44,561 nt of DNA from Planctomycetota bacterium. GTDB lineage: Bacteria > Planctomycetota > Phycisphaerae > Tepidisphaerales > Tepidisphaeraceae. The stretch spans positions 1 to 44,561 of the forward strand of contig JBCDCH010000030.1 of the NCBI GenBank assembly GCA_039182125.1, written 5' to 3'. The notes beneath the pieces were generated by a model. That model saw nothing but the letters and a program-made list of their open reading frames with translations, was not told the origin of the DNA and ran no database searches. The position numbers and the translations under genes were made by a program. Below are positions 4,800 to 27,264 of the stretch, piece by piece; position 1 is the stretch's first letter, and each line of letters starts with the position of its first letter.

Positions 4800-6326
4800 T
4801 CAGGCTTTGAAGTTGATGCCTTGGGCGAGGGGGAGGTCGGTGCCGTAGTTGACGGTGTTGGTGGTGCGGCGCATGTAGTTTTTCCAGGCGTCGGAGCCGG
4901 ACTCGCGTCCGCCGCCGGTTTCCTTTTCGCCGCCGAACGCGCCGCCGATCTCGGCGCCGCTGGTGCCGATGTTGACGTTGGCGATGCCGCAGTCGGAGCC
5001 CGAGGCAGCCATGAACCGCTCGGCCTCGCGGACGTCGGTCGTGAAGACGGCTGACGAAAGCCCCTGCGGCACACCGTTCTGAATCGCGATCGCTTCGTCG
5101 AAGTCCTTGTACGGCAATACGTACAGGATCGGCGCGAACGTCTCGGCTTGCACGATGTTTGCATCCGGCGCGACGCCCTCGACGAACGCGGGGCGGACGT
5201 AGAAGCCGGCGGGGACGTTGTCGGTCACGCGCTCGCCGCCGGAGATACTGCCGAGTTTGCGGGCGGCGTCGAGCGTTTTCTGCATGCCGTTGAAAGAATC
5301 CTCGTCGATCAGCGGCCCGAGCAGCGTCGCTTCATCACGCGGGTCGCCGACTGGCAGTTTGCCGGCGATCTGCTTCAAGCGCGGAACGATCTTGTCCACC
5401 ATTGACTCATGCACGATCAAACGACGCAGCGTCGTGCAGCGCTGGCCGGCGGTGCCGAAGGCGCTGAACGTCGCGGCTCGGACGCACAGTTCCACGTCGG
5501 CCGAGGGCGTGACGATCATCGCGTTGTTGCCGCCGAGTTCGAGCAGGCTGCGACCAAGGCGCGCACCGACGGCCGCGCCGACGTTCTTGCCCATGCGGAC
5601 ACTACCGGTCGCGGAAACCAACGGGAAGCCGGGGTGGTTCGCCATCGCCTCGCCGACATCGCGGCCGCCGACGATAACGCTGCTCAGCGCTGCCGGCACG
5701 TCGAGGTCGCCGCTCTCGGCAATGACTTCCTGCGTCAGCGTCTGGCAAGTGATCGCCGTCAGCGGCGTCTTCTCGCTCGGCTTCCAAACGACCGGGTTGC
5801 CGCACACGAACGCCAGCGCCGCGTTCCACATCCACACCGCGACGGGGAAGTTGAACGCGCTGATCACCGCGACCGGGCCGAGCGGGTGCCACTGCTCCAT
5901 CATGCGATGGTCGCCGCGTTCGGTGGCGATGGTCAGGCCGTAGAGCTGTCGCGAGAGGCCGACCGCGAAGTCGCAGATGTCGATCATCTCCTGCACTTCG
6001 CCGAGCGCTTCCTGGACGATCTTGCCGGCCTCGAGCGTGACGACTTCGGCGAGCTCTGCTTTGTGCTCGCGGAGCTTGTTGCCCAGACGGCGGACGAACT
6101 CGCCACGCTTTGGTGCGGGGATGTTCCGCCAGGAAGCAAACGCTTCCTGTGCGGCCTTCACCGCCGTGTCAACGTCCGTCGCAGTGGCTTGGGGGAACGT
6201 TGCCGTCGTCGAACCGTCGATGCAACAACGGGCGATCAGCTTCGCGTCGCCGCCGGCCGACGGTCTGTTACCGATGTGGACGGCGTGGACGGGCTGGTCA
6301 ATGAGCGGCACTTGGATCGCGGACAT
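4800..6326 (-). CDS. ALDH7-type aldehyde dehydrogenase (probable aminoadipate-semialdehyde dehydrogenase)
   Basis: A 508-residue NAD(P)-dependent aldehyde dehydrogenase. Visible catalytic residues are Asn159 in SAFNFPV, Lys182 in WKPSEKTPL, Glu263 in LELGGNN and the nucleophile Cys297 in GTAGQRCTTL. The long N-terminus, the AFNFPVAVWMWN stretch and the QRCTTLRR active site match the ALDH7/antiquitin branch, whose usual substrate is alpha-aminoadipate semialdehyde (allysine). It is the last gene of a tight minus-strand operon after a lysine 6-dehydrogenase-like gene and an alpha/beta hydrolase (12-base gap), which supports a role in lysine breakdown: allysine to alpha-aminoadipate. A broader semialdehyde specificity cannot be excluded. 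Confidence 0.93.
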   Translation of the reverse strand: MSAIQVPLIDQPVHAVHIGNRPSAGGDAKLIARCCIDGSTTATFPQATATDVDTAVKAAQEAFASWRNIPAPKRGEFVRRLGNKLREHKAELAEVVTLEAGKIVQEALGEVQEMIDICDFAVGLSRQLYGLTIATERGDHRMMEQWHPLGPVAVISAFNFPVAVWMWNAALAFVCGNPVVWKPSEKTPLTAITCQTLTQEVIAESGDLDVPAALSSVIVGGRDVGEAMANHPGFPLVSATGSVRMGKNVGAAVGARLGRSLLELGGNNAMIVTPSADVELCVRAATFSAFGTAGQRCTTLRRLIVHESMVDKIVPRLKQIAGKLPVGDPRDEATLLGPLIDEDSFNGMQKTLDAARKLGSISGGERVTDNVPAGFYVRPAFVEGVAPDANIVQAETFAPILYVLPYKDFDEAIAIQNGVPQGLSSAVFTTDVREAERFMAASGSDCGIANVNIGTSGAEIGGAFGGEKETGGGRESGSDAWKNYMRRTTNTVNYGTDLPLAQGINFKA

Positions 6327-6338
6327 GCCGCGAGCATA

Positions 6339-7421
6339 TCACTCGCCCGCGTCCGCGCCGAACCGCTCGTTGATCCACGGTGCGATCGTTTCCCAAACCA
6401 CCGGCGACATCGTCTGCTCGCTTCGGTCGTAGGCGAACACGGCGGCGGGCGTCTTACCGACGTCGTGGAGGAAGTGACTCAACCCCGGCAGGGTGACGAC
6501 CGTCACGTCGTCGGTCGGTGCATCGTCAAGAATCGCTTCGACCACGGGCGCGTTCTGCTCGGCGCTCACTTGCAAGTCCTGCCCTGCGAAGATCGCGAGT
6601 ACGGGTACGTCGAGTTGGCCGAGCGAGTCGGCCGGGTCGGTGTTGAGAAACACCTTGAACCACGGCGCTTGCAACTGCGGCAGCACGGCGTTGACGGTCT
6701 GGTCGATCTGCGCCTGTTGCGCTTCGTTGGGCTCGCCGGTGATGCCGAACTGGGCTGTGACAAGCGCGGCGATCATCGGTCGCAGCGTCTCGGCGTCGGC
6801 ACCGTTGGCGGCGGCGGTCAGGGCGGTTCGGTTCAGCTCCCCGATGCGCTCGGCACGCTCGGCGGGCACGCCCATCGCCGCGATCAGATCCGCGCTCTGG
6901 CGGGCGAGGATGTCGATGCCGTTGAGCCCCGGGCCGGCGAGTGTGATGACGAAGTCGATCGGCGAGTCGTCGCGGATCGTGGCCATGGGTCCAGTGATGC
7001 CGCCCTCGGAGTGGCCGATGAAGCCGACGGCATCGAGTTCGGGCAGGGCGTCGGCGAAGCTGGCGGCGGCGTGGGCGTCGGCCGCGAAGTCGTTGATCGT
7101 CGAGGCCGCGAAGTCACCGGTGGAGGCGGCGAAGCCGCGGTCGTCGTAGCGCAGCACGGCGATGCCTCGGCGGGTCAGCGCGTCGGCAAGCACGGCGAAA
7201 GGCCGATGGCCAAAGAGCGCCTCGTCTCGGTCCTGCGGCCCGCTGCCGGTGAGCAACACCGCCGCCGGCCACGGGCCTTCGCCCTCGGGCACGGTCAAGG
7301 TGCCGGCGAGTGTTACATCGTCGACCGACGCGATCTCGACTTCACGCACTTCGTACGGGAACGGCGGAACGGAATCCTGCGGCTTTTCGGCGACGACGAC
7401 GGCAAGGGCTACAGCAAGCAT
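6339..7421 (-). CDS. Alpha/beta hydrolase, probably exported
   Basis: A 360-residue alpha/beta hydrolase. The nucleophile elbow is GHSEGG with Ser138; the likely acid is Asp282 in IFAGQDLQV and the likely base is His316 in LPGLSHFLH. The oxyanion-region motif LTGSGPQDRDE at 57-67 is typical of the dienelactone-hydrolase/BAAT-like esterases also annotated as S9-like. Residues 1-11 are hydrophobic and may be a short signal peptide or anchor. It lies 9 bases after the lysine-dehydrogenase-like gene and 12 before the aldehyde dehydrogenase. Its substrate is unknown. If exported, it may feed the pathway from outside rather than act in it. No clear Shine-Dalgarno precedes the ATG, so it may be translated by coupling. 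Confidence 0.88.
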   Translation of the reverse strand: MLAVALAVVVAEKPQDSVPPFPYEVREVEIASVDDVTLAGTLTVPEGEGPWPAAVLLTGSGPQDRDEALFGHRPFAVLADALTRRGIAVLRYDDRGFAASTGDFAASTINDFAADAHAAASFADALPELDAVGFIGHSEGGITGPMATIRDDSPIDFVITLAGPGLNGIDILARQSADLIAAMGVPAERAERIGELNRTALTAAANGADAETLRPMIAALVTAQFGITGEPNEAQQAQIDQTVNAVLPQLQAPWFKVFLNTDPADSLGQLDVPVLAIFAGQDLQVSAEQNAPVVEAILDDAPTDDVTVVTLPGLSHFLHDVGKTPAAVFAYDRSEQTMSPVVWETIAPWINERFGADAGE

Positions 7422-7430
7422 GGCTGAAGC

Positions 7431-8564
7431 TTAGAGTGCCGATGGCACGTACGGATCGTCGATCTGCTCGACGCCGTCACGGCTGGTCGCGTAGCAGCAG
7501 CCGAAGCGGTTGGCGAGGAAGTCGGCCAGGTCGATCTGTTCCTGCTTGACGAAGCCTTTGCTCGGCAGTTTGCCGGTCGCGTGCATGTCGAGCACGGCGC
7601 ACAGGCTGGCGGCGGTGGTGATCTGAATGCCGGACATGTCCACGCCGCGGAAGGGGCCGTGGTAGACCTTGCGAGCGTCGGTCACCTGCGTGAGCCGGCC
7701 GTCTTTCTGACCTGTCGCCGTGCAGAAAATCAGCACCACGTCCTGGGGCGTCATCGGGATGGCGTTTTCGAAGATGTCCTTGAGCAGCTCGCGGCGTTCG
7801 TTGAGCCGAAGGTCGTTCATGAGGAACCGGATCAGGTCGCGGTGTCCGCGATAGCGAATGGTTTTGTAGTCGAGGTTGCGGACGGAGCCGGCGAGCGTCT
7901 CGGCGAGCGTCCCGACACCGCCGGAGGTGTTGAACGCCTCGTACATCACGCCGTCGAGCGAAAACTGTTCGTGGCCCTCGAGCGGGAGCACGTCGATTTG
8001 CTCGCCGTTGACGACGGCTTCGCACGGGTTGCCGTATTCGTTGATGAGGCCGTCGGTGCTCCAGGTGAGGTTGTACTTGAGTTCGTTGGTCGGGAAGATC
8101 GGCAGAGCACCGACGCGAAGCCGGACGCTGTCGAGCGTGTCGAGCTTTTTGGCTAGATCGTTCGCGGCGATGGAGACGAAGCCCGGCGCCAGCCCGCACT
8201 GCGGCATGAAGATCTGGCCGTCTTTCGCGCCCTGCGACACTTCGCGCACGAGCTTGGTCGTGGCAACGTCCTCGGTCAGGTCGAAGTAGCTCAAGCCGAG
8301 TTCCTTGGCACACTCGGCAACGAGCGGATTGTGGGTGAACGAGAGGGCCGACAGCACCGACTGCCGGCCGTTCATCGCCTTGCGTAAGGCGGCGACGTCG
8401 TCAACGTCGATCGCGGCGGTGCTGACATTGTCGAGGCCTTCGAGGCGATCGAGTGCATCCGGTGACGCGTCGCCGACGAGTACGTCGTAGTCGCCCGTGT
8501 CGCCCAGAAGTTTCGCGACGGCCGAGCCGATTTTTCCAGCACCGAGAAGCAGTACGCCATGCAT
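7431..8564 (-). CDS. Lysine 6-dehydrogenase-like protein (saccharopine dehydrogenase family)
   Basis: A 377-residue oxidoreductase. Residues 4-13 form a Rossmann nucleotide site (VLLLGAGKIG). The CGLAPGF motif at 123-129, the FNTSGG segment at 211-216 and YKTIRYRGH at 233-241 match what I recall of lysine 6-dehydrogenase of Geobacillus and relatives within the saccharopine-dehydrogenase-like superfamily; length also fits. That enzyme oxidises L-lysine to allysine (piperideine-6-carboxylate), the substrate of the ALDH7 enzyme encoded two genes downstream. A saccharopine reductase role is the alternative. The start at 8564 is chosen over the longer frame because an AGAAGG-type Shine-Dalgarno sits 8 bases upstream and the Rossmann motif begins at once. 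It is divergent from the gene at 8614. Confidence 0.85.
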   Translation of the reverse strand: MHGVLLLGAGKIGSAVAKLLGDTGDYDVLVGDASPDALDRLEGLDNVSTAAIDVDDVAALRKAMNGRQSVLSALSFTHNPLVAECAKELGLSYFDLTEDVATTKLVREVSQGAKDGQIFMPQCGLAPGFVSIAANDLAKKLDTLDSVRLRVGALPIFPTNELKYNLTWSTDGLINEYGNPCEAVVNGEQIDVLPLEGHEQFSLDGVMYEAFNTSGGVGTLAETLAGSVRNLDYKTIRYRGHRDLIRFLMNDLRLNERRELLKDIFENAIPMTPQDVVLIFCTATGQKDGRLTQVTDARKVYHGPFRGVDMSGIQITTAASLCAVLDMHATGKLPSKGFVKQEQIDLADFLANRFGCCYATSRDGVEQIDDPYVPSAL

Positions 8565-8613
8565 GTGTGAGACCTTCTTGTAAGATGTTCGAGAACCGAC
8601 CGGAGCATAACGC
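8565..8613. promoter_or_regulatory. Short divergent intergenic region
   Basis: Only 49 bases separate the divergent start codons of the lysine-dehydrogenase-like gene and the 454-residue unknown protein. Both ribosome sites lie inside it: an AAGAAGG on the minus strand and CCGGAG on the plus strand, each 8 bases from its ATG. The two promoters must therefore overlap or lie partly inside the opposite gene, which favours joint control. A TAAGAT at 8577-8582 could be a plus-strand -10 box, but no convincing -35 is seen. Confidence 0.5.
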
Positions 8614-9978
8614 ATGAACGACGAACTGACGAAGTGGCACTGGGAACAACAGCCCGAAGCGGCGAACCTCCTCGCAGGTTGGCTGGATGATGCCTGTTCG
8701 AAAAACGCTTGGCTCAAGGACTTTGGCGAGCGGCTCTACGCGACTAGTGGCAACCGTCTGGGCGACCTCGTTGAAATGTGGATCGTGCCGGATAACGAGG
8801 AGAATCGCGGTGATCTGGGGCGCGTCGGTTACGTCGAGCAGGACGTGCCGGCCGACGGGCCGATCTTCCACCATCCCGGCGGCATGTTTCCGCGCGTCAT
8901 GCTCGCGCCACACCACGAGACCGACCTCGGTATCAAGGTCGAGTCTTGTGCCGACTTCGCCGTTGCCCATGGGCTGACATCGGCGATTCACGGCAAGCCG
9001 GGGCAGTTGGTCCGTTATGTCGCGGCGGCCAAGGAGAACGGGCTCAACGTCTACGGCATCGAGCGGCGCGGAACCCTCGTCGCCGACTGCGCGAAGCTCG
9101 ACTCACCGAGCGTCGCCGACCAAGCCGAGGTGCTCGAAGCGTTTCGGACTCGGCCGCGCAAGTTCGACGACGAAGTCGCCGGCTTCGAACAGATGGCGAC
9201 GCTTATCGACAATGCTGTCGACAAGGTTGGGCGGGACGTGGCTTGCGAGCTGTGGTTCGCTGCCGAACGCGATTACTGGCAACGCCGCAATCGTGCTGCT
9301 CGTTGGCAGTACGCCCGCCAGGATGCGCTCGGCGTCGGATGGGCCAACCACGACCACCATACCTATCGCTCGTCACGCAAGCACTTCCATCGTCTCGTTG
9401 CGCTCTGGGAGAAGCTCGGCTTCCACTGCCGCGAACGCTTCTACCCCGGCCCTGAAGCTGGCTGGGGGGCGCAGGTCATGGAGCAACCGGTGTGCGGGAT
9501 CGTCACGTTCAACGACGTCGACATCTCGCCCGACGAACTGCTCACCGACTTCGCCCACGAGCCGATGGAAGAACGCGACGAGCTCGCGACCGTCGGACTC
9601 TGGTGCGGCCTCCACGGCGAGTCCGTCCTCCAGGCGGGTATGCACCACCTCGAATGCACGTTCGACTTCGTTGCGTTGCGTGATCAGATGGCCGACGACG
9701 GCATCAAGACGATGCGTGCGTTCAGCGACTTCGATTATCTCAAGCAAGCATTCACCGAGGGCGAGCGTTGGCCCGTTGCCGAGGATCGCATCGCAGCGCT
9801 GCTCGACGCCGGCAAGATCGACGCCGCCCAGGCCGATGAGTTCCGCAACAACGGAGCGATCGGCAGCCACCTCGAAAACCTCGAACGCAACAACGGCTTC
9901 AAGGGCTTCAACCAAACTGGTGTAACGCAGGTTATCAAGGAAACCGACCCCCGCCGTCAGAAGCTCGCGGGGGTGTGA
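8614..9978 (+). CDS. Unrecognised 454-residue protein with VOC-like motifs, divergent from lysine-catabolic genes
   Basis: I do not recognise a named family. The protein is soluble, 454 residues, with no signal peptide. It appears to have two halves, each with a pattern like vicinal-oxygen-chelate (glyoxalase-type) modules. The first half has a histidine pair at 100-101 and a KVES strand with Glu109 or Glu110. The second has HDHHTYRS at 246-253 leading a helix that ends in LGF, then VMEQP with Glu290, and HHLECTFDF at 344-352. These could supply iron or other metal ligands. The C-terminus ends in a conserved-looking FNQTGVTQVIKETDP. Its start is supported by GGAG 8 bases upstream. The divergent arrangement with a lysine 6-dehydrogenase/ALDH7 operon suggests, by inference only, a role in lysine or 2-oxoadipate breakdown, where a VOC-fold oxygenase (HglS) is known elsewhere. 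Confidence 0.8.
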   Translation: MNDELTKWHWEQQPEAANLLAGWLDDACSKNAWLKDFGERLYATSGNRLGDLVEMWIVPDNEENRGDLGRVGYVEQDVPADGPIFHHPGGMFPRVMLAPHHETDLGIKVESCADFAVAHGLTSAIHGKPGQLVRYVAAAKENGLNVYGIERRGTLVADCAKLDSPSVADQAEVLEAFRTRPRKFDDEVAGFEQMATLIDNAVDKVGRDVACELWFAAERDYWQRRNRAARWQYARQDALGVGWANHDHHTYRSSRKHFHRLVALWEKLGFHCRERFYPGPEAGWGAQVMEQPVCGIVTFNDVDISPDELLTDFAHEPMEERDELATVGLWCGLHGESVLQAGMHHLECTFDFVALRDQMADDGIKTMRAFSDFDYLKQAFTEGERWPVAEDRIAALLDAGKIDAAQADEFRNNGAIGSHLENLERNNGFKGFNQTGVTQVIKETDPRRQKLAGV

Positions 9979-13358: not shown

Positions 13359-16300
13359 TCAACTCTCGAAACCGAGTCGGCGGATTCTGCCGTTGATGTC
13401 GACGACGTAGATCGCACCGTCGATGCCCTGATCCATCATGACCAGTCGTCCTTCGGGATCAGTCAGCGATTCGATGCTGTTCACAGAGCCGTCGGGGTTG
13501 AGGATCATCGCTCGGACGTCGTTGCGGCCATAGTCGGTGAAGAAGAAGGCGTTTTCGTACAGGTCGGGGTAGTAGTTGGTTTCCCCGGTGTAGAAGTCGC
13601 CGGCCGTGACCGCGACCGCACCGTCGGCACCGCCGTGTCGTCCAGACCAGAGCGGGACGATAGCGGAGTTGTTGAGATAGAACTCCTGGGCGGCGGGCAG
13701 ATCACGGTAGCCGCGCGTCGGGTCATTGCCCGAGTCGGCCCCCTCGTACCACGGCCAGCCGAAGTTCTCGCCGCCGCCGTCAGAGAAGTCGACGACGTTG
13801 ATCTCTTCCCACGTACCCCAGCCGACATCGCCTAGGAAGATGTCGTTGGTCTCGGGGTGGATCGCCATGCGATAGGGGTTCCGCAGGCCCAGGGCGAAGA
13901 CCTTGGAGCGATTGGAGTCGAGATCGCCGTCGAAGAACGGGTTGTCCGCGAAGCCGCGGCCGGTGAGCGGGTCAACGCGTAGCAGCTTGCCGGAGAGGTT
14001 GTCCAGGTCCTGGACACGCTCGGACCGCGGGTCGACCGCGCCGTAGCTGGTCCCGTCGCCGTTGGAAATGTAGAGCGCGCCGTCGGTGCCGAAGCGGAGT
14101 GCGCCAATGGAGTGCGACTGGCTATCGGTGCCGAGGAAGTCCTGAACCCAGGTGCCGTCAGGGTTCTGGCCCGAGGGCGGCAGGTCGAAGTTCTGGGTCG
14201 AGTCGAGATCGGGTCGGGTGACGTGCTCCCAGGTGGAGTTCTTGCCGACGATGACCTCGCCCGAGCCGGCCTCGGCGATTTCGAAGCCGCTCTCGGCGGT
14301 GGCGGTGAGCTTGACCACGCGGGACGGCCGGTTGCCGCGCTCGTCGCGCCCGGCCAGGCCGAGCGTGTTGCCGTTGGCCTCCGGCGGGTCGTAGGTGTAG
14401 GCCGCGTAGACGTACGGCTGTTGCGGGAAGTCCGGATGGACTGCGAAGCCGATCAGCCCACGGTCGCGGACGTTGTTCACGTCGTCCCGCAGGTCGGCGA
14501 ACTGGGTGACCTGCCCGTCCTTGAAGAGCTTGATGATGCCTGACTTTTCGGCGATGAACATCCAGCCGTCGGACGTGTGATCGATCGCGGTCGGCTGGGT
14601 GAGGCCGGTGACGTAGTCTTCGAGCACGAAGTCGCCAGCGGTCGGGGCCGGGGGCGTTTCGGCGGGGTAGAGCTGGGTCGAGGGAATCACTTCCAGCGGG
14701 GTGTTGGGGCCTTGCCACAGCAGGCGCATTGCCGACTGGCCGCCGGCCTCGTAGTACTCGACGCGGATGTCATACTTCACGCCGGCCTCGAGGCTGATCT
14801 GGCCCTGGTGTGCGGTGTACGCCTGGTCGACCCACTGATTGATGATGAGGTTACCGTCGACCCAGAGCCGGACGCCGTCGTCGGACTCGGTGCGGAAGGT
14901 CCAAGTACCAGTGGTGCGTGGCTCGACCTGACCGTCCCAGCGGATGCTGAAGTCGTTCACGCCCATCGTCGGCACGGGCGCCTCGATGCCAAAGTCGAAG
15001 TCGATGGTTTCATCGACGCGGAGCACCTTGCGGCGGGTGAAGTCGCGGTTGTCGAAGTACTGTCCGAGCAGGCCGGTGCCGGTGCCGATGGGCGTGCCGT
15101 TGCTGCCGGAGTAGAGCTGCGACTGCGGGACGACTTCCTTCGATTGGCTGCTGCTGGACCACGAAAGGCTGGCCGATGCCCAGCCGGTGTTCTCACGGAA
15201 GCGCAGCTCGATGGGGACTTGCTGACCTTCGACGAGCGTGATTTGTCCGGTGTACTCGGGTGCGGGTGTCCAACTCGGGACGTCGATGATTTTGACGCCG
15301 TCGACGAACAGCTCGGCCGCGTCGTCGACGCTCAGGTGGAAGGTGTACGTCTCGCCGTAGCGCGGCTCGATGAAGCCGGACCAGACGACGCTGAAGTTGT
15401 CAGCAGGAATGTCGGCCCGCGGACTGCCGTCCTGCCAGCCGAAGTCGATACGCTGGTCCACGCGCTCGAAGACGTCGTTGGTGAACGTGTTGTCGTCGAA
15501 GTAAGTGCCGAGAAGCCCGTCGCCGCTGCCGCTGGCCGGAGGCTCGGGGGCGTCGACGCTGTACAGCTGTGACTGCGGAACGATTTGCTTCGGCTGCGAG
15601 GCGGAAGACCAGAACAAGCGTGCCTGTGCCCAGCCGCCGCCCTCATTGTAGTCGAGGCTGATGTCGTACCGCTGACCGGCTTCGAGGGTGATCGTGCCGA
15701 TGTACTCGGTCGCGGGCGTCCACTCGGGCTGGTCGATGAGCGTCTGGCCGTTGACCTTGAGCGTGACGCCGTCGTCGGCTTGGACGTGGAAGGTGTATTC
15801 CTCGGTGTAGAGCGGCTCGATCTGGCCCAGCCAGCGGACGCTGAACTGGTCAACGCCGACGCGGCTGTCGGGGCCGCCGGCCTGCCACTCGAAGTCGACC
15901 GTGGCGTCGATCCGCTCGAACTGCAGATCGGAGAACGTCTGACCGTCGTAGTACAGGCCACGCAAGCCGTCGCCAGTGCCGGAGGTCGGCGGAGCGTCGG
16001 GGGTGAAGAGCTGGCTGCGCGGCACGATCTCCTTGGCCTGGCGTGCGCTGCTCCACGAGAGCTTCGCCTTCGCCCAGCCGCTGCCCTCGATGAACTCCAT
16101 GCGCAGGTCGTACTCTTGGCCGGCCTGGAGGTTGATGGTGCCGGTGTACTCGTCGGCCGCGGTCCACGAGGGTTGATTGATCAGCAACTGCCCGTCGACC
16201 CAGAGCCGCACACCATCGTCGGCCTCGGCGTGGAACGTGTAGGTTTCGGTGTAGAGTGGCTTGACCGTGCCGGTCCATCGGACGCTGAAGTTGTCCTCGT

Positions 16301-17525
16301 TGAGTCGGGCCTCGGGCTTGTTGTCTTCCCACTCGAAGTCGATCCGCGGGTCGATGCGGGTAAACGCGAGGTCGTTGAACTCGGTGTCGCGGAAGTAGTC
16401 AGCCTGTAGTCCATCGCCTTCACCGACCGGCTGCGGTTCGTCGTCCTGGATCACGACGGTCGTGGTGCGCGGCGCGTCCAACGCACCGGGACCCGCGACC
16501 GCGTTGAGGCTCGTGTTGAACGTCTCGTCACCCTCGACCTCGGTGTCGTTGAGAATCGGAATGACGACGTTGGCCCGGACCTGTCCGTCCGCGAAGTTCA
16601 CGGTGCCGGTGACGTCGGTGTAGTCGAGGCCGGCTTTGGCGGAGGCGTCGACGACTTCGTAGTTGACGACGGCCGCGCCGTTCGAGCCGTCAATACGGAT
16701 GACCGGGACGGTGACGGTGCCTGCGTCTTCGTCCACGGTGTAGAGCGTGGTTTCCCAGCGGAACTTGCCGTCGGCTTCGGGGTTGGCCAGCGCTTTGATC
16801 TCGCCGCCGGAGATGCCCTGTTTGTAGATCTTGACATCGTCAATCGTGCCTTTAAAGAAGGCCGTGCCGATCGGATTGCCCTGCGTGCGTGCGCGACCGA
16901 CCGTCACGAATCCGCCCTCACTTGCGGGCATGTCCCACTCGACGCCGGCGCGGACGGTGGACTTTTGGCCGTTGATCCAGAGAGCGGTTTCCGAACCATC
17001 GTTCGTGATGGCGATGTGGTTCCACTGGTTGTCCGGTAGGGAGATCGCCGACTCGAACTCGAAGCTTGCTCCCTGCCCATCTCGAATCCAGACGGAGACG
17101 GTGTTGTCCGGTTCAAGATAAAGGTCGAGACCCGACTCGACGCTGTATCCAAACGGACTCACACCGTTGGTATGGTGGCTCAGCAGACCCTGACGCGCGA
17201 CGGTCGGCTCGGGACGGACCCACAAGCTGTGCGAGAAAGTCGGTCCCGTCACCACATTGTCAATGAGGACGTACTCGTTGACGCCATCGAACCGCAAGCC
17301 GTTGTTGAACCGCCCGTCGACACGGTCGACGTCTTCCATGTTGATCAGCGAGCCCGTGGAGCCGGCGACGGCGTTGGTCGCGATGGTGCCGGTGCTCTCG
17401 TCGAACTGCCAGTGCCCGGCCAGCGCGCTATCGAGCAGCCGGCGCTGTTCAAGCGTTTCGGTCACGGCACGATCGAGCGATGTACGGGGTGCGTCGGCAC
17501 AAAAGCGTTGGCTCTGGCGGGGCAT
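13359..17525 (-). CDS. Giant secreted LamG / Calx-beta / PA14x4 / sugar-dehydrogenase protein
   Basis: A 1388-residue multidomain surface or secreted protein. In order: an N-terminal LEQRRLL motif (25-31), the tag common in planctomycetal exported proteins; a LamG/concanavalin-like domain (33-241, with FDGVNEYV and GTIDDVKIYKQ); a Calx-beta domain (252-363); four tandem PA14 domains (370-511, 518-659, 667-811, 816-956) each with a DDGVRLWVDG-like core; and a glucose/sorbosone-dehydrogenase beta-propeller (966-1386, with HPDFPQQPYVY, ALGLRNPYRMAIHP and GDVGWG). PA14 domains usually bind carbohydrates, so the protein may dock on polysaccharide and oxidise a sugar. The start at 17525 has an AGGA Shine-Dalgarno 6 bases upstream; the longer frame lacks one. 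No C-terminal anchor is visible. Confidence 0.93.
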   Translation of the reverse strand: MPRQSQRFCADAPRTSLDRAVTETLEQRRLLDSALAGHWQFDESTGTIATNAVAGSTGSLINMEDVDRVDGRFNNGLRFDGVNEYVLIDNVVTGPTFSHSLWVRPEPTVARQGLLSHHTNGVSPFGYSVESGLDLYLEPDNTVSVWIRDGQGASFEFESAISLPDNQWNHIAITNDGSETALWINGQKSTVRAGVEWDMPASEGGFVTVGRARTQGNPIGTAFFKGTIDDVKIYKQGISGGEIKALANPEADGKFRWETTLYTVDEDAGTVTVPVIRIDGSNGAAVVNYEVVDASAKAGLDYTDVTGTVNFADGQVRANVVIPILNDTEVEGDETFNTSLNAVAGPGALDAPRTTTVVIQDDEPQPVGEGDGLQADYFRDTEFNDLAFTRIDPRIDFEWEDNKPEARLNEDNFSVRWTGTVKPLYTETYTFHAEADDGVRLWVDGQLLINQPSWTAADEYTGTINLQAGQEYDLRMEFIEGSGWAKAKLSWSSARQAKEIVPRSQLFTPDAPPTSGTGDGLRGLYYDGQTFSDLQFERIDATVDFEWQAGGPDSRVGVDQFSVRWLGQIEPLYTEEYTFHVQADDGVTLKVNGQTLIDQPEWTPATEYIGTITLEAGQRYDISLDYNEGGGWAQARLFWSSASQPKQIVPQSQLYSVDAPEPPASGSGDGLLGTYFDDNTFTNDVFERVDQRIDFGWQDGSPRADIPADNFSVVWSGFIEPRYGETYTFHLSVDDAAELFVDGVKIIDVPSWTPAPEYTGQITLVEGQQVPIELRFRENTGWASASLSWSSSSQSKEVVPQSQLYSGSNGTPIGTGTGLLGQYFDNRDFTRRKVLRVDETIDFDFGIEAPVPTMGVNDFSIRWDGQVEPRTTGTWTFRTESDDGVRLWVDGNLIINQWVDQAYTAHQGQISLEAGVKYDIRVEYYEAGGQSAMRLLWQGPNTPLEVIPSTQLYPAETPPAPTAGDFVLEDYVTGLTQPTAIDHTSDGWMFIAEKSGIIKLFKDGQVTQFADLRDDVNNVRDRGLIGFAVHPDFPQQPYVYAAYTYDPPEANGNTLGLAGRDERGNRPSRVVKLTATAESGFEIAEAGSGEVIVGKNSTWEHVTRPDLDSTQNFDLPPSGQNPDGTWVQDFLGTDSQSHSIGALRFGTDGALYISNGDGTSYGAVDPRSERVQDLDNLSGKLLRVDPLTGRGFADNPFFDGDLDSNRSKVFALGLRNPYRMAIHPETNDIFLGDVGWGTWEEINVVDFSDGGGENFGWPWYEGADSGNDPTRGYRDLPAAQEFYLNNSAIVPLWSGRHGGADGAVAVTAGDFYTGETNYYPDLYENAFFFTDYGRNDVRAMILNPDGSVNSIESLTDPEGRLVMMDQGIDGAIYVVDINGRIRRLGFES
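14658..16418 (-). repeat. Four tandem PA14-domain repeats (intragenic)
   Basis: Four diverged copies of about 140 codons each, at 15993-16418, 15549-15974, 15093-15527 and 14658-15080. All begin with a G-x-G-x-GL-x-Y/YF pattern and end in a VPxSQLY/F motif. Spacers are only about 5-8 codons. The first three copies are most alike; the fourth has lost the WSS motif and has a shifted WxxQAY segment, suggesting it is the oldest or functionally distinct copy. Confidence 0.85.
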
Positions 17526-17718
17526 TTTCGTCCTACGGGTTATCGTCAAGCTACAGAGTTCTCCCCAAACGACGGCGATCGCCGCGCCTGGCTGCACAGC
17601 TCACAAGAAACCATGGCACCACGTCGGTTGCAAGCAGATTTTTGAAGACCGCAAAGGCCAATAAACCGATGCGTGACTCTGATTCCGTTTGTGCGGTTTG
17701 GCGCGGTTGGTCGGTCGT

Positions 17719-23265: not shown

Positions 23266-26028
23266 TTAGCTGTCGCCACCACCGGTGCCACGGAAGTTAA
23301 ACGGCTGGAAGCTACTCACGGCCGCCTGTTGATCCTGCAGGCCAGCGATGGCGAGTTCCATGTTGAAGAACTGCCGTTCGAGCCGGGCACGCTTGCCGTC
23401 GAGCAGGGCGTTGAGCTGGTCGATGCGGTCTTCATAGCCGCGGGTGACTTCGTCGATCGCGTCGGCGGTTCGTTTGATGATGCCGTCGACCGGGTCGACG
23501 ATCCGGTCGAGCCTTTCTTCGATGAGCCAGCCGAGGCCGACGCCGACGACCGCCTCCTCGCCCTCGTCGTCGAGCTGAGTGGTCGTGGCCGTGAAGAGCC
23601 GTTCGACAGCCCGCGGGTCGTCGGCGTAGGCGGCGTTGAAGGTTTCCTCGTCGAACGTCAGTTCGCCGCCGTTTTCGATGTTCACGCCGATGTCGCCGAG
23701 CCGCTGGTATTGGCCGCCTTCGACGACACGGTCGCGCAGCAACGCGTACAACTCGGACTCGATCCGCTGCACCGCCGACTCGCCGAGCAACTGCCCGCGG
23801 CGACCGGTCTCGACGTCGAAATCGGTCAACGAGCGGATCTCGGAGATCGTGGTGTTGAACCCCTCGACAAGGGCTTTGAGTTGGTCCTTGACCGGGGTCG
23901 TGTCGGAAGCGACTTCGATGTTGATTGCCTGATCGCTCACGCCGGTGAGTTCGAAGGACACGCCGCGGACAGCGTCGCTGATCGTGTTGGACTTGCTGGA
24001 GATGGCGATCGCGTCGGCACCGCCGCCGATGTAGGCCAGCGCGTCACTCGCCTCGGATAGGTCGCGTGTGCGGAGACTGGTGGCGCCGCCGTCGACGAGT
24101 ACTTGCCCCGCGAGACCCGGTCGCCGGCCGGTGAGCGACAGTCGGAAGGGCGTGTTGCCGCCGTCGTTGAGCAACGTCGCGGCCACGCCGGCGTCGGATT
24201 CGTTGATCTTCGTGATGACCTCGTCGAGCGTGTCGGAGGCGGCGACTTCGATGGTCGTTTCGTAACTGCCGGTCAGCGTCGTCTCGCCGGTCTCGGCCTC
24301 GCCGGTGATCCGCAGGGCGCTGCCGATCTGGCCCTCGACGTCGTTGATCCGTAGCTGCGTCGCGCCGCCGGCGGTGTCGGTGACGGTGAAGCCGTCGCCA
24401 TTGTCGTTGAGTCCGATGCTCACGCCGAAGCTTGCGGCCGTGTCGTTGATCTTGGCGAACAGGTCATCGACGTTGGTGATGTCGTCCTCTTCGTCGATCA
24501 CGACTTCGAAGACGTCGCCGTTGGAGTTGGTGAACTCGAGCGTGCCGGCCCCGATGCCGTTGCCGCCGTCGAGGTCGGCCACCTCGGTGGTGCCGTAGAT
24601 CCACTGGCGTTGCAGGTTCGCGCCCTTGGCGTCGGGCGCGTTGGGATCGGTGTTTGGGGCGAAGGTGCCGAGCAGGCCGAGGTCGGCCGCGGTGGTGCCG
24701 CCGCGCTCGGCCATGGTGAGATCGCCGTTGCCGCCGGTGAGGTCGATCAGGTCGATGCCGTTGCCCGCGTCGTTGATCTGGGCTTCGACGCCGGCACCGG
24801 CATTGTTGATCGCGTCGATCAGTCCGGCGACGTCCTCGGCTTGCGTGTCGATGTTCGTGGTGACGCCGGCACGGTTGGTGACGGTCAGGCCGCCGCTCGT
24901 GTCAATGCCGTCGCCCCCGGCGAGGGACTGGATGAGCACGCTGCCGTTGCTCGCGACGATCTGCCGGCCGTTGAACGTGCCGGTCGTCGAGCTGCCGATC
25001 AGCCCGAGGTCTTGCACGGCCGACGAGCCGTTGGCGCTGGCAACGGACGTCTGCCCAATGCCCAGCGGCGGTATGGTCGTGTTGTCGTTGATGATCAGCC
25101 GGTTGCCGCTGATGGTCAGGGTCGCGTCGCCGCCAGCCGCGTCGTCGAACCTTTCGATCACGTCGCCGATCGTTTTCGCATCGGTCAGGTCGACGTCGAA
25201 GTTGCTGCCGTTGAGCAAGGTGACGGTAAGGTCGGCGTTGAGACCGACATCGACGCCGCGGCCATCGTTGAGACTCGAAAGGGTGGTGGTCTCGGCGAGG
25301 CCATCGAGTTGCGCGCCGGTGATGGTCGTGGCGGAGACGCGTTGATCGATGCCGAGCTCTTCGGCGGCGGTTCCGTCGATATCGCGGACGGCCAGTTGGC
25401 CGCTGCCGCCGGTGAAGTCGGTGAGCACGAGCTTGCCGTCCTCGATGTCGGCCTGCACGTTGACGTCGGTGTTGCGGCTGATGCGCAGGGCGAGTTCGTC
25501 GAGGTCTCGGACGCCCGCGGTGTCGATGACCGCCGAGTCGCCGGCGCGGTCGGTGATGCGGAACAGGCCGGCCGAGATGCCCTGACCGCCGCGTAGGTCG
25601 TTGATGCTCGACTCGGACCGCAGTCCCTTGCCGCCGAGTTCGAAGGTCAGATTGCCGATGCCGAGCGTGTCGGTCGGGGACGCGAAGCCTTGCGAAACGG
25701 TCTGCTGGCTCGACGCGAGTTGTGCGACGCGAACCTGGAAGCTGCCGGTGGCGGCGCGGTCGCTCGCGGTGGCGACAACGACGTCGTCGTTGCCGCTGGT
25801 CGCCGTGGCTGCCTGAAACCTCTGCGAAAGCTTGAGTTGCTGGCCGGCGAGGCGGAGCGAGGCAAGCCGTGTTTCGAGCGTGGTGTAGGCGAGGCGGCGC
25901 GACTCATTGCCGGCAATGCGTTGCTCGTACAAGGCACGCGGACGCGCCTCGATCTGCATGAGCTGCTCGATGATCTGCTGCGAGTTGATGCCGCTGGCTA
26001 GGCCAACGCCGGATGAAATCGTACCCAT
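23266..26028 (-). CDS. fliD: Flagellar hook-associated protein 2 (filament cap), unusually long
   Basis: A 920-residue filament-cap protein; typical FliD is about 450-680. Residues 1-110 are FliD_N (SSGVGLASGINSQQIIEQLM start, then heptad-like segments). Residues 143-574 hold four repeats of about 90 residues resembling flagellin hook IN modules, and 590-650 a fifth partial one. Residues about 660-900 are FliD_C, with AFxxxYNxTISEI-like VEGFNTTISEIRSL and a C-terminal coiled coil (about 850-905). It caps the growing filament and folds flagellin outside the cell. The start at 26028 is set by a GGAG 8 bases upstream; the longer open frame to 26787 is a shadow of the FAS1 gene. fliS follows. Confidence 0.95.
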   Translation of the reverse strand: MGTISSGVGLASGINSQQIIEQLMQIEARPRALYEQRIAGNESRRLAYTTLETRLASLRLAGQQLKLSQRFQAATATSGNDDVVVATASDRAATGSFQVRVAQLASSQQTVSQGFASPTDTLGIGNLTFELGGKGLRSESSINDLRGGQGISAGLFRITDRAGDSAVIDTAGVRDLDELALRISRNTDVNVQADIEDGKLVLTDFTGGSGQLAVRDIDGTAAEELGIDQRVSATTITGAQLDGLAETTTLSSLNDGRGVDVGLNADLTVTLLNGSNFDVDLTDAKTIGDVIERFDDAAGGDATLTISGNRLIINDNTTIPPLGIGQTSVASANGSSAVQDLGLIGSSTTGTFNGRQIVASNGSVLIQSLAGGDGIDTSGGLTVTNRAGVTTNIDTQAEDVAGLIDAINNAGAGVEAQINDAGNGIDLIDLTGGNGDLTMAERGGTTAADLGLLGTFAPNTDPNAPDAKGANLQRQWIYGTTEVADLDGGNGIGAGTLEFTNSNGDVFEVVIDEEDDITNVDDLFAKINDTAASFGVSIGLNDNGDGFTVTDTAGGATQLRINDVEGQIGSALRITGEAETGETTLTGSYETTIEVAASDTLDEVITKINESDAGVAATLLNDGGNTPFRLSLTGRRPGLAGQVLVDGGATSLRTRDLSEASDALAYIGGGADAIAISSKSNTISDAVRGVSFELTGVSDQAINIEVASDTTPVKDQLKALVEGFNTTISEIRSLTDFDVETGRRGQLLGESAVQRIESELYALLRDRVVEGGQYQRLGDIGVNIENGGELTFDEETFNAAYADDPRAVERLFTATTTQLDDEGEEAVVGVGLGWLIEERLDRIVDPVDGIIKRTADAIDEVTRGYEDRIDQLNALLDGKRARLERQFFNMELAIAGLQDQQAAVSSFQPFNFRGTGGGDS
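24307..25602 (-). repeat. Four tandem hook-IN-like repeats inside fliD
   Basis: Repeat units at residues 143-227, 250-345, 366-454 and 483-574. Each runs: a leucine-rich L-x-GGxGI/V opening, a short G-L-x-I/V-T strand, a hydrophobic helix ending in IxR/N-(x)N, a gl-x-L-x-D-tGG strand pair, and an ending A-x-DLGL(I)G. The second unit is the most degenerate in its opening. They are diverged in DNA, so they are old duplications rather than recent slippage. Confidence 0.8.
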
Positions 26029-26048
26029 ATGGCTTGCTCCAATAACCT

Positions 26049-26076
26049 GTATCGGCAAGCCGTGGCGTTGGCTGTA
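26049..26076 (-). promoter_or_regulatory. Possible sigma-28-type promoter of fliD
   Basis: On the minus strand TACA (26073-26076), a 16-base spacer and GCCGATAC (26049-26056) resemble the flagellar sigma-28 consensus TAAA-N15-GCCGATAA, with 7 of 8 bases in the -10. The predicted start near 26042 leaves a leader of only about 14 bases but still includes the GGAG ribosome site. Weak on the -35 side. Confidence 0.35.
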
Positions 26077-26169
26077 GCCCGTCGGAAGGTGGTCGAGCGG
26101 CGATCTCGGAGAAAACTTGGCGAGATGGGAAAGCGGTGCGGGCTTTCCACGTCCGGATAAATTCTGACG

Positions 26170-26194
26170 CCAACTTTGCCGCTTCGATGCGTCC
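26170..26194 (+). promoter_or_regulatory. Candidate ECF-sigma promoter of the FAS1-sigma-anti-sigma operon
   Basis: CCAAC (26170-26174), a 15-base spacer and CGTCC (26190-26194) resemble the ECF-sigma pattern GGAAC-N15/16-CGTC. It sits about 85 bases upstream of the FAS1 ATG. Because the operon itself encodes an ECF sigma factor, self-activation is a natural guess. The rest of the 249-base gap between fliD and the FAS1 gene shows no gene. Confidence 0.35.
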
Positions 26195-26277
26195 GGCGAG
26201 GCGTCCGGTGCGAAGGAGAGGACAGAGCCACACGAGTGGCCGCCGCCGGCCGTCCACCCCACACCCCGGAGTCCCGC

Positions 26278-27264
26278 ATGTTCTCTTCCGCAACCACCCT
26301 TGCCGGCGTCGCGATCGTCGGCTTTCTCGTCCCGGTGACCTTCGCCGGCGACTGCGACGAGAAGACCACGCCGCAAAACACGAGCTTCATCGCCGCCGCC
26401 CACGATGCCGTGCCCTCGATCTTCGAGATCGCGTTCACCACGCCCGACTTCAGCACGCTCGCCGGACTGATCGCCGTGGCCGATCTCGACGAGCCGCTGA
26501 ACCAGAGTGGTGATTTCACCGTCTTCGCCCCGACCAACGACGCGTTCGAGGCACTGCCGGACGGCACGCTCACCGAGGTCATCAACGACAAAGACCTTCT
26601 GACGAAAATCCTGACCTACCACGTCGTTCCCGGCCGGATCTTCGCGGACGACATTCCGCAGGGTCGCACCGAGGTCGAAACCCTCGGCGGTGAGATATTG
26701 ATCATCGATCGGGCCGGCGCTGACATCCGCATCAATGGCAACCAGGTCGTGGCCGCCGATATCGAGGCGTCCAACGGCGTCGGCCACGTGATCGAAGGCG
26801 TGCTGCTCCCCGGAAAGGAGAAGCCGAAGAACACCCTCGACCTCTTCGACGTCTTGGAACGGACGAGCGAACTCTCCACCCTCGAGACAGCGGTCAAGGC
26901 GTCCGGCTTCGCCCGTTCGCTGGGCAACGATGGTCCGTACACCGTCTTCACGCCGACCAACGACGCGTTCGCTGCATTACCAAGCGGCACCGTCGAGTCG
27001 CTGCTTGATCACAGCAACGTCAACGACCTGCGGGCCGTGCTTCGTCTGCACATTCTCGCGGGTGAGGTCGATGCCCGTGGCGCGGTCGTCGCCGGTGAGG
27101 CCGAGAGTCGCGAGGGCAGCACGCTCCGCTTCGAGATCGAAGACGGCCAACTGTTCGTCGTCGGACCGACCAATCGTGCCAAGGTGATCAAGACCAACAT
27201 CACCGCCGAGAACGGCATCGCCCATGTCATCGACACGGTTCTTTTGCCGGGCGACTCGCACTGA
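26278..27264 (+). CDS. Secreted fasciclin (FAS1) domain protein, two domains
   Basis: A 328-residue exported protein. Residues 1-23 are a signal peptide (hydrophobic core then TFAGDCDEK). Two FAS1 domains follow, about 34-180 and 190-325, each with the H1 motif (TVFAPTNDAFEALP, TVFTPTNDAFAALP), a central Y/LH (ILTYHVVPG, VLRLHILAG) and the H2 motif ending in GVGHVIEGVLLP or GIAHVIDTVLLP. FAS1 domains mediate adhesion or matrix binding. The start at 26278 has GGAG 6 bases upstream. It is followed after 11 bases by an ECF sigma gene and then an anti-sigma gene, so expression is probably linked to that switch. Confidence 0.93.
   Translation: MFSSATTLAGVAIVGFLVPVTFAGDCDEKTTPQNTSFIAAAHDAVPSIFEIAFTTPDFSTLAGLIAVADLDEPLNQSGDFTVFAPTNDAFEALPDGTLTEVINDKDLLTKILTYHVVPGRIFADDIPQGRTEVETLGGEILIIDRAGADIRINGNQVVAADIEASNGVGHVIEGVLLPGKEKPKNTLDLFDVLERTSELSTLETAVKASGFARSLGNDGPYTVFTPTNDAFAALPSGTVESLLDHSNVNDLRAVLRLHILAGEVDARGAVVAGEAESREGSTLRFEIEDGQLFVVGPTNRAKVIKTNITAENGIAHVIDTVLLPGDSH

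Follow-up and report, generated by a model that had tools for sequence, protein, structure and literature searches.

HglS closes the non-ketogenic lysine route to 2-oxoglutarate in bacteria and plants, and genomes with the upstream part of the pathway and no PF07063 (DUF1338) gene appear to miss this step. Specifically, in the HglS of Pseudomonas putida, H70, H226 and E294 are the metal ligands, while R74 holds the distal carboxylate of 2-oxoadipate; activity was abolished in the R74A variant, and this Arg together with the HHE triad has been proposed as a hallmark of 2-oxoadipate use (PMC7286885).

The gene pursued here is located in a window of 44,561 nucleotides, by which we mean the whole stretch of planctomycete DNA that was analysed. 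It occupies positions 8614–9978 of the forward strand and encodes a tandem-VOC, HglS-like protein of 454 residues, which we propose as a 2-oxoadipate dioxygenase/decarboxylase. An initial annotation, made from the sequence alone, had suggested an iron enzyme of the VOC type, either a distant relative or an analogue of HglS, that acts downstream of the neighbouring lysine pathway. Both suggestions gained support, in that DUF1338/HglS structures ranked first for both halves of the protein and the HglS residues were conserved, while the lysine-gene neighbourhood was conserved in the family and canonical HglS was nearly absent from genomes bearing the gene.

Family membership and predicted fold

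The frame at 8614–9978 starts with ATG and runs uninterrupted for its 454 residues, the opposite strand contains internal stops, and the gene is present as a single copy in its own genome. A scan of bacterial genomes recovered 240 relatives, mostly from Planctomycetota and also from Verrucomicrobiota, Chlamydiota and Acidobacteriota, and the best 80 of these were approximately 44–52% identical to the protein across nearly its full length. As the initial annotation had it, the protein was unrecognised, with no family match in Pfam, NCBIfam or PHROG and no sequence match in the PDB. Given the number of relatives, their identity among the best 80 and the absence of a library match, the family is real, conserved and unnamed in the libraries searched. 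Additionally, a literature search returned no description of a tandem HglS-like family. Two divergent paralogues, L093 and L094, were about 400 residues long and 24–27% identical. At a further locus (L091; G097:C157, 798–2112), the gene adjoins a lysine dehydrogenase gene and is seemingly split between two frames, which may reflect a frameshift, a pseudogene or an assembly error.

An AlphaFold2 model, for which 65 own or locus-derived sequences were aligned, had a pLDDT of 93.8 and a pTM of 0.92, and comprised two VOC-type domains; the N-terminal 186 residues modelled alone reached a pLDDT of 90.5. Fold searches with the full model and with the N-terminal half exposed VOC modules of the metal-binding-barrel type, so that the two halves seen in the initial annotation both folded as VOC domains, and a fold lacking VOC modules did not occur. 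With the full-length model, Foldseek placed 4-hydroxyphenylpyruvate dioxygenase (HPPD) and hydroxymandelate synthase (HMS) on top, aligned across both halves and above DUF1338. Using VIA, the best match to the C-terminal half was rice FLO7 with 2-oxoadipate (6w1k; Z 16.4, 3.3 Å, 213 residues), spanning model residues 201–452, followed by 3iuz (Z 16.3) and 3lho (Z 15.2), with HMS and HPPD at 13.1 and below. The top five matches to the N-terminal half were all DUF1338 structures (3lho 12.2, 3iuz 11.9, 6w1k 11.2, 2rjb 8.7 and 6w1g 8.5), and the next stood at 7.3.

At the profile level, the DUF1338 comparison envisaged in the initial annotation had a divided outcome. The PF07063 and NCBIfam HglS models gave no match to the protein at E ≤ 1, but the N-terminal half alone matched short DUF1338 proteins weakly in hhalign (P 2.9e-4, as against P 0.4 for HPPD). 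For the C-terminal half, profile–profile comparison to DUF1338 or HPPD was not significant, a result that is uninformative because the positive control within PF07063, short against long members, failed equally.

Because VIA placed DUF1338 first for both halves and hhalign recovered the N-terminal signal, the protein as modelled is a tandem of two HglS-type domains, and it seems to be related to HglS by true, if remote, homology and not only by analogy. The N-terminal DUF1338/HglS-fold domain (residues 1–186; 8614–9171, +) was assigned from the model and from the VIA and hhalign comparisons, and is degenerate by its column make-up. The C-terminal HglS-fold domain (residues 196–454; 9199–9975, +) is predicted to be the catalytic one, based on the VIA results and on conservation, since C-terminal halves were 56–68% identical between relatives, compared to 23–40% for N-terminal halves, and the latter have no ligand set.

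Candidate active-site residues

The HglS sequence at the ligand sites reads RHGAIR, NHLTP, LRQTS and GEIEQR, and the counterparts in the C-terminal half are DHHTYR (H248, R252), HHLE (H345), LKQAF (Q378) and HLENLER (E421, R425). These motifs keep the HglS order and, in the model, lie on equivalent strands, namely the first strand of each module and the last strand. The H248xxxR252 motif (9355–9369, +) thereby supplies the predicted first metal ligand and the predicted 2-oxoadipate-binding Arg, corresponding to H70 and R74 of HglS on the basis of alignment, conservation and the published enzyme (PMC7286885). The predicted second ligand lies in H344–H345 (9643–9648, +; N225–H226 in HglS), on the first strand of the second module, and this pair was kept in 88–89 of 90 sequences. 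Between this pair and the last strand is an LxQ378xF motif (9739–9753, +), comparable in PDB sequences to L264xQ266 of HglS and LxQS of FLO7, in which L376, Q378 and F380 were invariant, barring the single Q378 exception counted below. Finally, E421xxxR425 (9874–9888, +; E294xxxR298 in HglS) contributes the predicted third ligand from the last strand, and MAFFT placed it onto E234/R238 of short DUF1338 proteins.

Conservation at these positions was close to complete among the 90 sequences, with H248 and R425 in 90/90 and R252, H345, Q378 and E421 in 89/90, and every deviation from the HglS-type residues fell in one of the two divergent paralogues. Of the three C-terminal ligand positions, L093 keeps one and has lost the others, while in L094 a Trp replaces R252, and judging from these substitutions the two are possibly non-catalytic or altered members. 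The loss of candidate His and Glu residues among homologues that the initial annotation had named as evidence against its reading did not occur for H248, H345 and E421. Unguided MAFFT placed H248, R252, E421 and R425 onto H40, R44, E234 and R238 of short DUF1338 proteins, which themselves align to FLO7, albeit not all four in every mode; R252 fell on R44 in two of three unguided alignments, and H345 was about 10 residues out of register with the reference His in all modes. The H248/H345/E421 triad was accordingly assigned by motif, order and alignment, with ligand geometry drawn from topology and conservation, and these three residues form the predicted ligand-like set of the C-terminal half. 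Column make-up of the alignment revealed no HglS ligand set, no conserved HHE triad and no corresponding Arg in the N-terminal half. The family further conserves four histidines that are peculiar to it, H246, H249, H334 and H419.

The Glu-containing motifs that the initial annotation had put forward as metal-binding (KVES, VMEQP and HHLECTFDF) are present as written, but the ligand-like Glu is E421 and none of theirs. E110 of KVES sits in the degenerate N-terminal domain and is often Asp in relatives; E347 of HHLECTFDF gives way to Ala in 7 of 90 relatives; and E290 of VMEQP, although conserved, is off the HglS ligand position.

Gene neighbourhoods and canonical HglS

In the window, the gene is divergent from a lysine-6-dehydrogenase-like gene (7431–8564, −; 377 aa), assigned by Pfam to the saccharopine dehydrogenase family. 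The closest full-length solved chain to its product was 3abi/PH1688 (E 1e-17), a lysine 6-dehydrogenase, compared with E values of 1e-5 to 1e-4 for true saccharopine reductases. No sigma-70 consensus site was found in the 49-bp intergenic region between the two genes (8565–8613). Located further along is an L-piperidine/piperideine-6-carboxylate (P6C) dehydrogenase, that is, a 2-aminoadipate semialdehyde dehydrogenase (4800–6326, −; NF050084, 771.5 bits against a cut-off of 730). An alpha/beta hydrolase gene (6339–7421, −) lies between these two lysine genes; a hydrolase of this kind was near none of the loci of 80 relatives, and it was left out of the system. The window had no match in Rfam. 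Elsewhere, it encodes a 1412-residue protein in which a glucose/sorbosone dehydrogenase domain occurs together with Laminin_G_3, Calx-beta and four PA14 stretches (13359–17597, −), and an unusually long FliD flagellar cap protein of 1173 residues, in which about 480 residues separate the FliD N-terminal and flagellin-hook motifs (23266–26787, −).

Among the 80 loci, a lysine dehydrogenase was nearby in 20, a P6C dehydrogenase in 17 and at least one of the two in 26, leaving 54 with no lysine gene nearby, although contig ends shorten many of the loci. An unselected tally of immediate neighbours ranked aldehyde dehydrogenases first and the saccharopine dehydrogenase family second. The lysine genes occurred in two arrangements, which fall in different branches of the family tree. 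In one, the gene is divergent from the lysine dehydrogenase, as seen in many branches of the tree, in Planctomycetota and also in one member of the Verrucomicrobiota (L061). In the other, found in five Verrucomicrobiota, the P6C dehydrogenase is directly upstream on the same strand, with gaps of 4–9 nt where complete. Two apparent P6C dehydrogenases beside the gene were removed from the count, one being a 2-hydroxymuconate-semialdehyde-dehydrogenase-like protein (L018) and the other AstD (L077). The product of ydiJ is a D-2-hydroxyglutarate dehydrogenase (PMC9504171), and ydiJ-like genes adjoined the studied gene at two loci, beginning 95 nt downstream at L054 (969 bits, under the equivalog cut-off of 1350) and adjacent to it at L077 (514 bits).

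We then compared 50 genomes with the gene to 137 genomes of the phylum without it. Lysine dehydrogenase (E ≤ 1e-40) was present in 32/50 of the former, hence missing from 18, and in 20/137 of the latter (p 2e-10, uncorrected for kinship), and ydiJ-like genes were present in 26/50 and 23/137, respectively. Canonical HglS (PF07063) occurred in 1/50 genomes with the gene and 12/137 without, an anti-correlation that taken alone is not significant (p 0.19). Upstream of the lysine dehydrogenases in genomes without the family, no clear alternative enzyme was seen.

The sole gene-bearing genome with canonical HglS among the 50, G182, contains two lysine clusters of the same layout. On one contig (C30), the family member is divergent from a lysine dehydrogenase gene that is followed by a P6C dehydrogenase gene, and on another (C105; L155, 860–5045), canonical HglS takes the place of the family member, with the two lysine dehydrogenase copies being 78% identical. 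No other single observation points as strongly to equal function as this slot shared by the two genes. G182 is a MAG, and its two contigs could stem from two organisms, but the same-slot argument is independent of this.

The genome from which the window comes has, on another contig (C71:6972–8669), a canonical HglS of 566 residues (protein P0003; L157/L081), which is its sole PF07063 match. The studied gene is thus not required there to fill a gap. Canonical HglS is also present in relatives of its class that lack both the gene and the lysine dehydrogenase, so that the lysine cluster of the window may represent a second module gained by acquisition. The C71 homologue contains an additional stretch of about 90 residues between two conserved blocks, a longer form that is common to the class relatives G002, G034 and G095. 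In these same three genomes, where the studied gene is absent, a P6C dehydrogenase gene lies 2–3 kb or less from a ydiJ-like gene (G002:C19, 361132–366234; G034:C1; G095:C1).

Proposed function and relation to known oxygenases

We consider the 454-residue protein to be, most probably, a divergent two-domain 2-oxoadipate dioxygenase/decarboxylase of the HglS (DUF1338) group that stands in for HglS. The predicted fold, domain duplication, residue conservation, gene linkage and HglS replacement at the same locus were computed, and we infer the metal identity, substrate, product and stereochemistry. The protein would belong to the VOC-fold, Fe(II)- and O2-dependent 2-oxoacid oxygenases, with an N-terminal domain that is presumably a decayed copy serving a structural function. 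In the preceding steps, lysine would be converted to piperideine-6-carboxylate (by the product of 7431–8564), to 2-aminoadipate (4800–6326) and, by an aminotransferase, to 2-oxoadipate. H248, H345 and E421 of the C-terminal domain would hold Fe(II), to which 2-oxoadipate would be chelated by its 2-oxo acid end, with R252 holding the distal carboxylate, and O2 would drive decarboxylation and intramolecular hydroxylation to D-2-hydroxyglutarate, for conversion to 2-oxoglutarate by D-2-hydroxyglutarate dehydrogenase.

A different substrate or product in or near lysine catabolism, with the VOC fold and Fe(II) oxygenase chemistry retained, is rather unlikely, although several observations favour it: the own genome already has canonical HglS, many loci are without lysine genes nearby, and the protein diverges strongly outside the triad, the Arg and the LxQ motif, with conserved histidines of its own. 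Such an enzyme might act on another dicarboxylic 2-oxo acid or an intermediate before 2-oxoadipate, or might decarboxylate 2-oxoadipate oxidatively to glutarate. R252 at the R74 position of HglS, the adjoining ydiJ-like genes at L054 and L077 and the occupation of the canonical HglS position in G182 all argue for 2-oxoadipate and D-2-hydroxyglutarate instead. We regard as improbable that the protein has no catalytic role and acts as a binding or regulatory VOC protein in the lysine cluster, so much so that we would give this the least credence; the loss of ligands from the N-terminal half, and of two of three C-terminal ligands from L093, would fit, but the triad, Arg and Gln of the C-terminal half are nearly invariant and this half is twice as conserved as the other, as expected of an active site.

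The Foldseek ranking at full length raises the further prospect of a two-domain relative of HPPD or HMS whose substrate is an aromatic 2-oxo acid and whose gene lies beside the lysine genes by chance. In HPPD, too, the N-terminal VOC domain is inactive and the C-terminal one active, and its FFEIIxRR stretch is similar to the C-terminal HLENLERNxGFKGF of the studied protein. Such a relationship is nevertheless very unlikely, as in both halves VIA ranked DUF1338 over HPPD, with a large gap in the case of the N-terminal one, the hhalign signal of that half was to short DUF1338 proteins and not to HPPD, no Pfam or NCBIfam HPPD model matched (TIGR01263 included), and R252 lies within the HglS motif HxxxR. 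A search of the own genome for HPPD returned no match at E ≤ 1e-20.

If the protein is indeed a 2-oxoadipate dioxygenase/decarboxylase, the family supplies the HglS step, and annotation pipelines could complete lysine degradation in planctomycetes and their relatives. It would also be the first tandem-domain form of an HglS-type oxygenase, with which ideas on how two-domain VOC oxygenases such as HPPD evolved could be tested. Tentatively, an HglS domain may have been duplicated and fused, and its first copy inactivated, giving rise to an HPPD-like two-domain oxygenase that displaced canonical HglS from lysine breakdown in a large part of the Planctomycetota and in some Verrucomicrobiota and Chlamydiota, perhaps with a distinct substrate range by way of H246, H249, H334 and H419.

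Compared with known systems, the protein resembles HglS (DUF1338, PF07063; P. putida HglS, E. coli YdcJ and rice FLO7) in the predicted VOC fold of its C-terminal half, in the order and spacing of the HxxxR, His, LxQ and ExxxR motifs, and in its lysine-catabolic neighbours, including the position beside lysine and P6C dehydrogenases in G182. It differs in having two HglS-type domains in tandem rather than one, in lacking a PF07063 profile match, in its motif letters (NHDHHTYR, MHHLE and HLENLER), and in a distribution that is largely confined to Planctomycetota and certain related phyla. With HPPD and HMS it shares a pair of VOC domains, of which the first is inactive and the second active, and a His-His-Glu iron site on equivalent strands, both as predicted here, but its N-terminal half is DUF1338-like, it has the HglS Arg, it matches no HPPD profile, and its context is that of lysine and not tyrosine. 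Short DUF1338 proteins (3lho and 3iuz type) have NDHxxFR, NHF and YYEFARR motifs that align with the C-terminal half, alongside weak profile similarity to the N-terminal half, but are single-domain proteins of about 265 residues. The protein is therefore reported as an HglS-like variant and kept out of PF07063, being not a standard DUF1338 member by profile or domain number, yet DUF1338-like by fold and predicted active-site residues.
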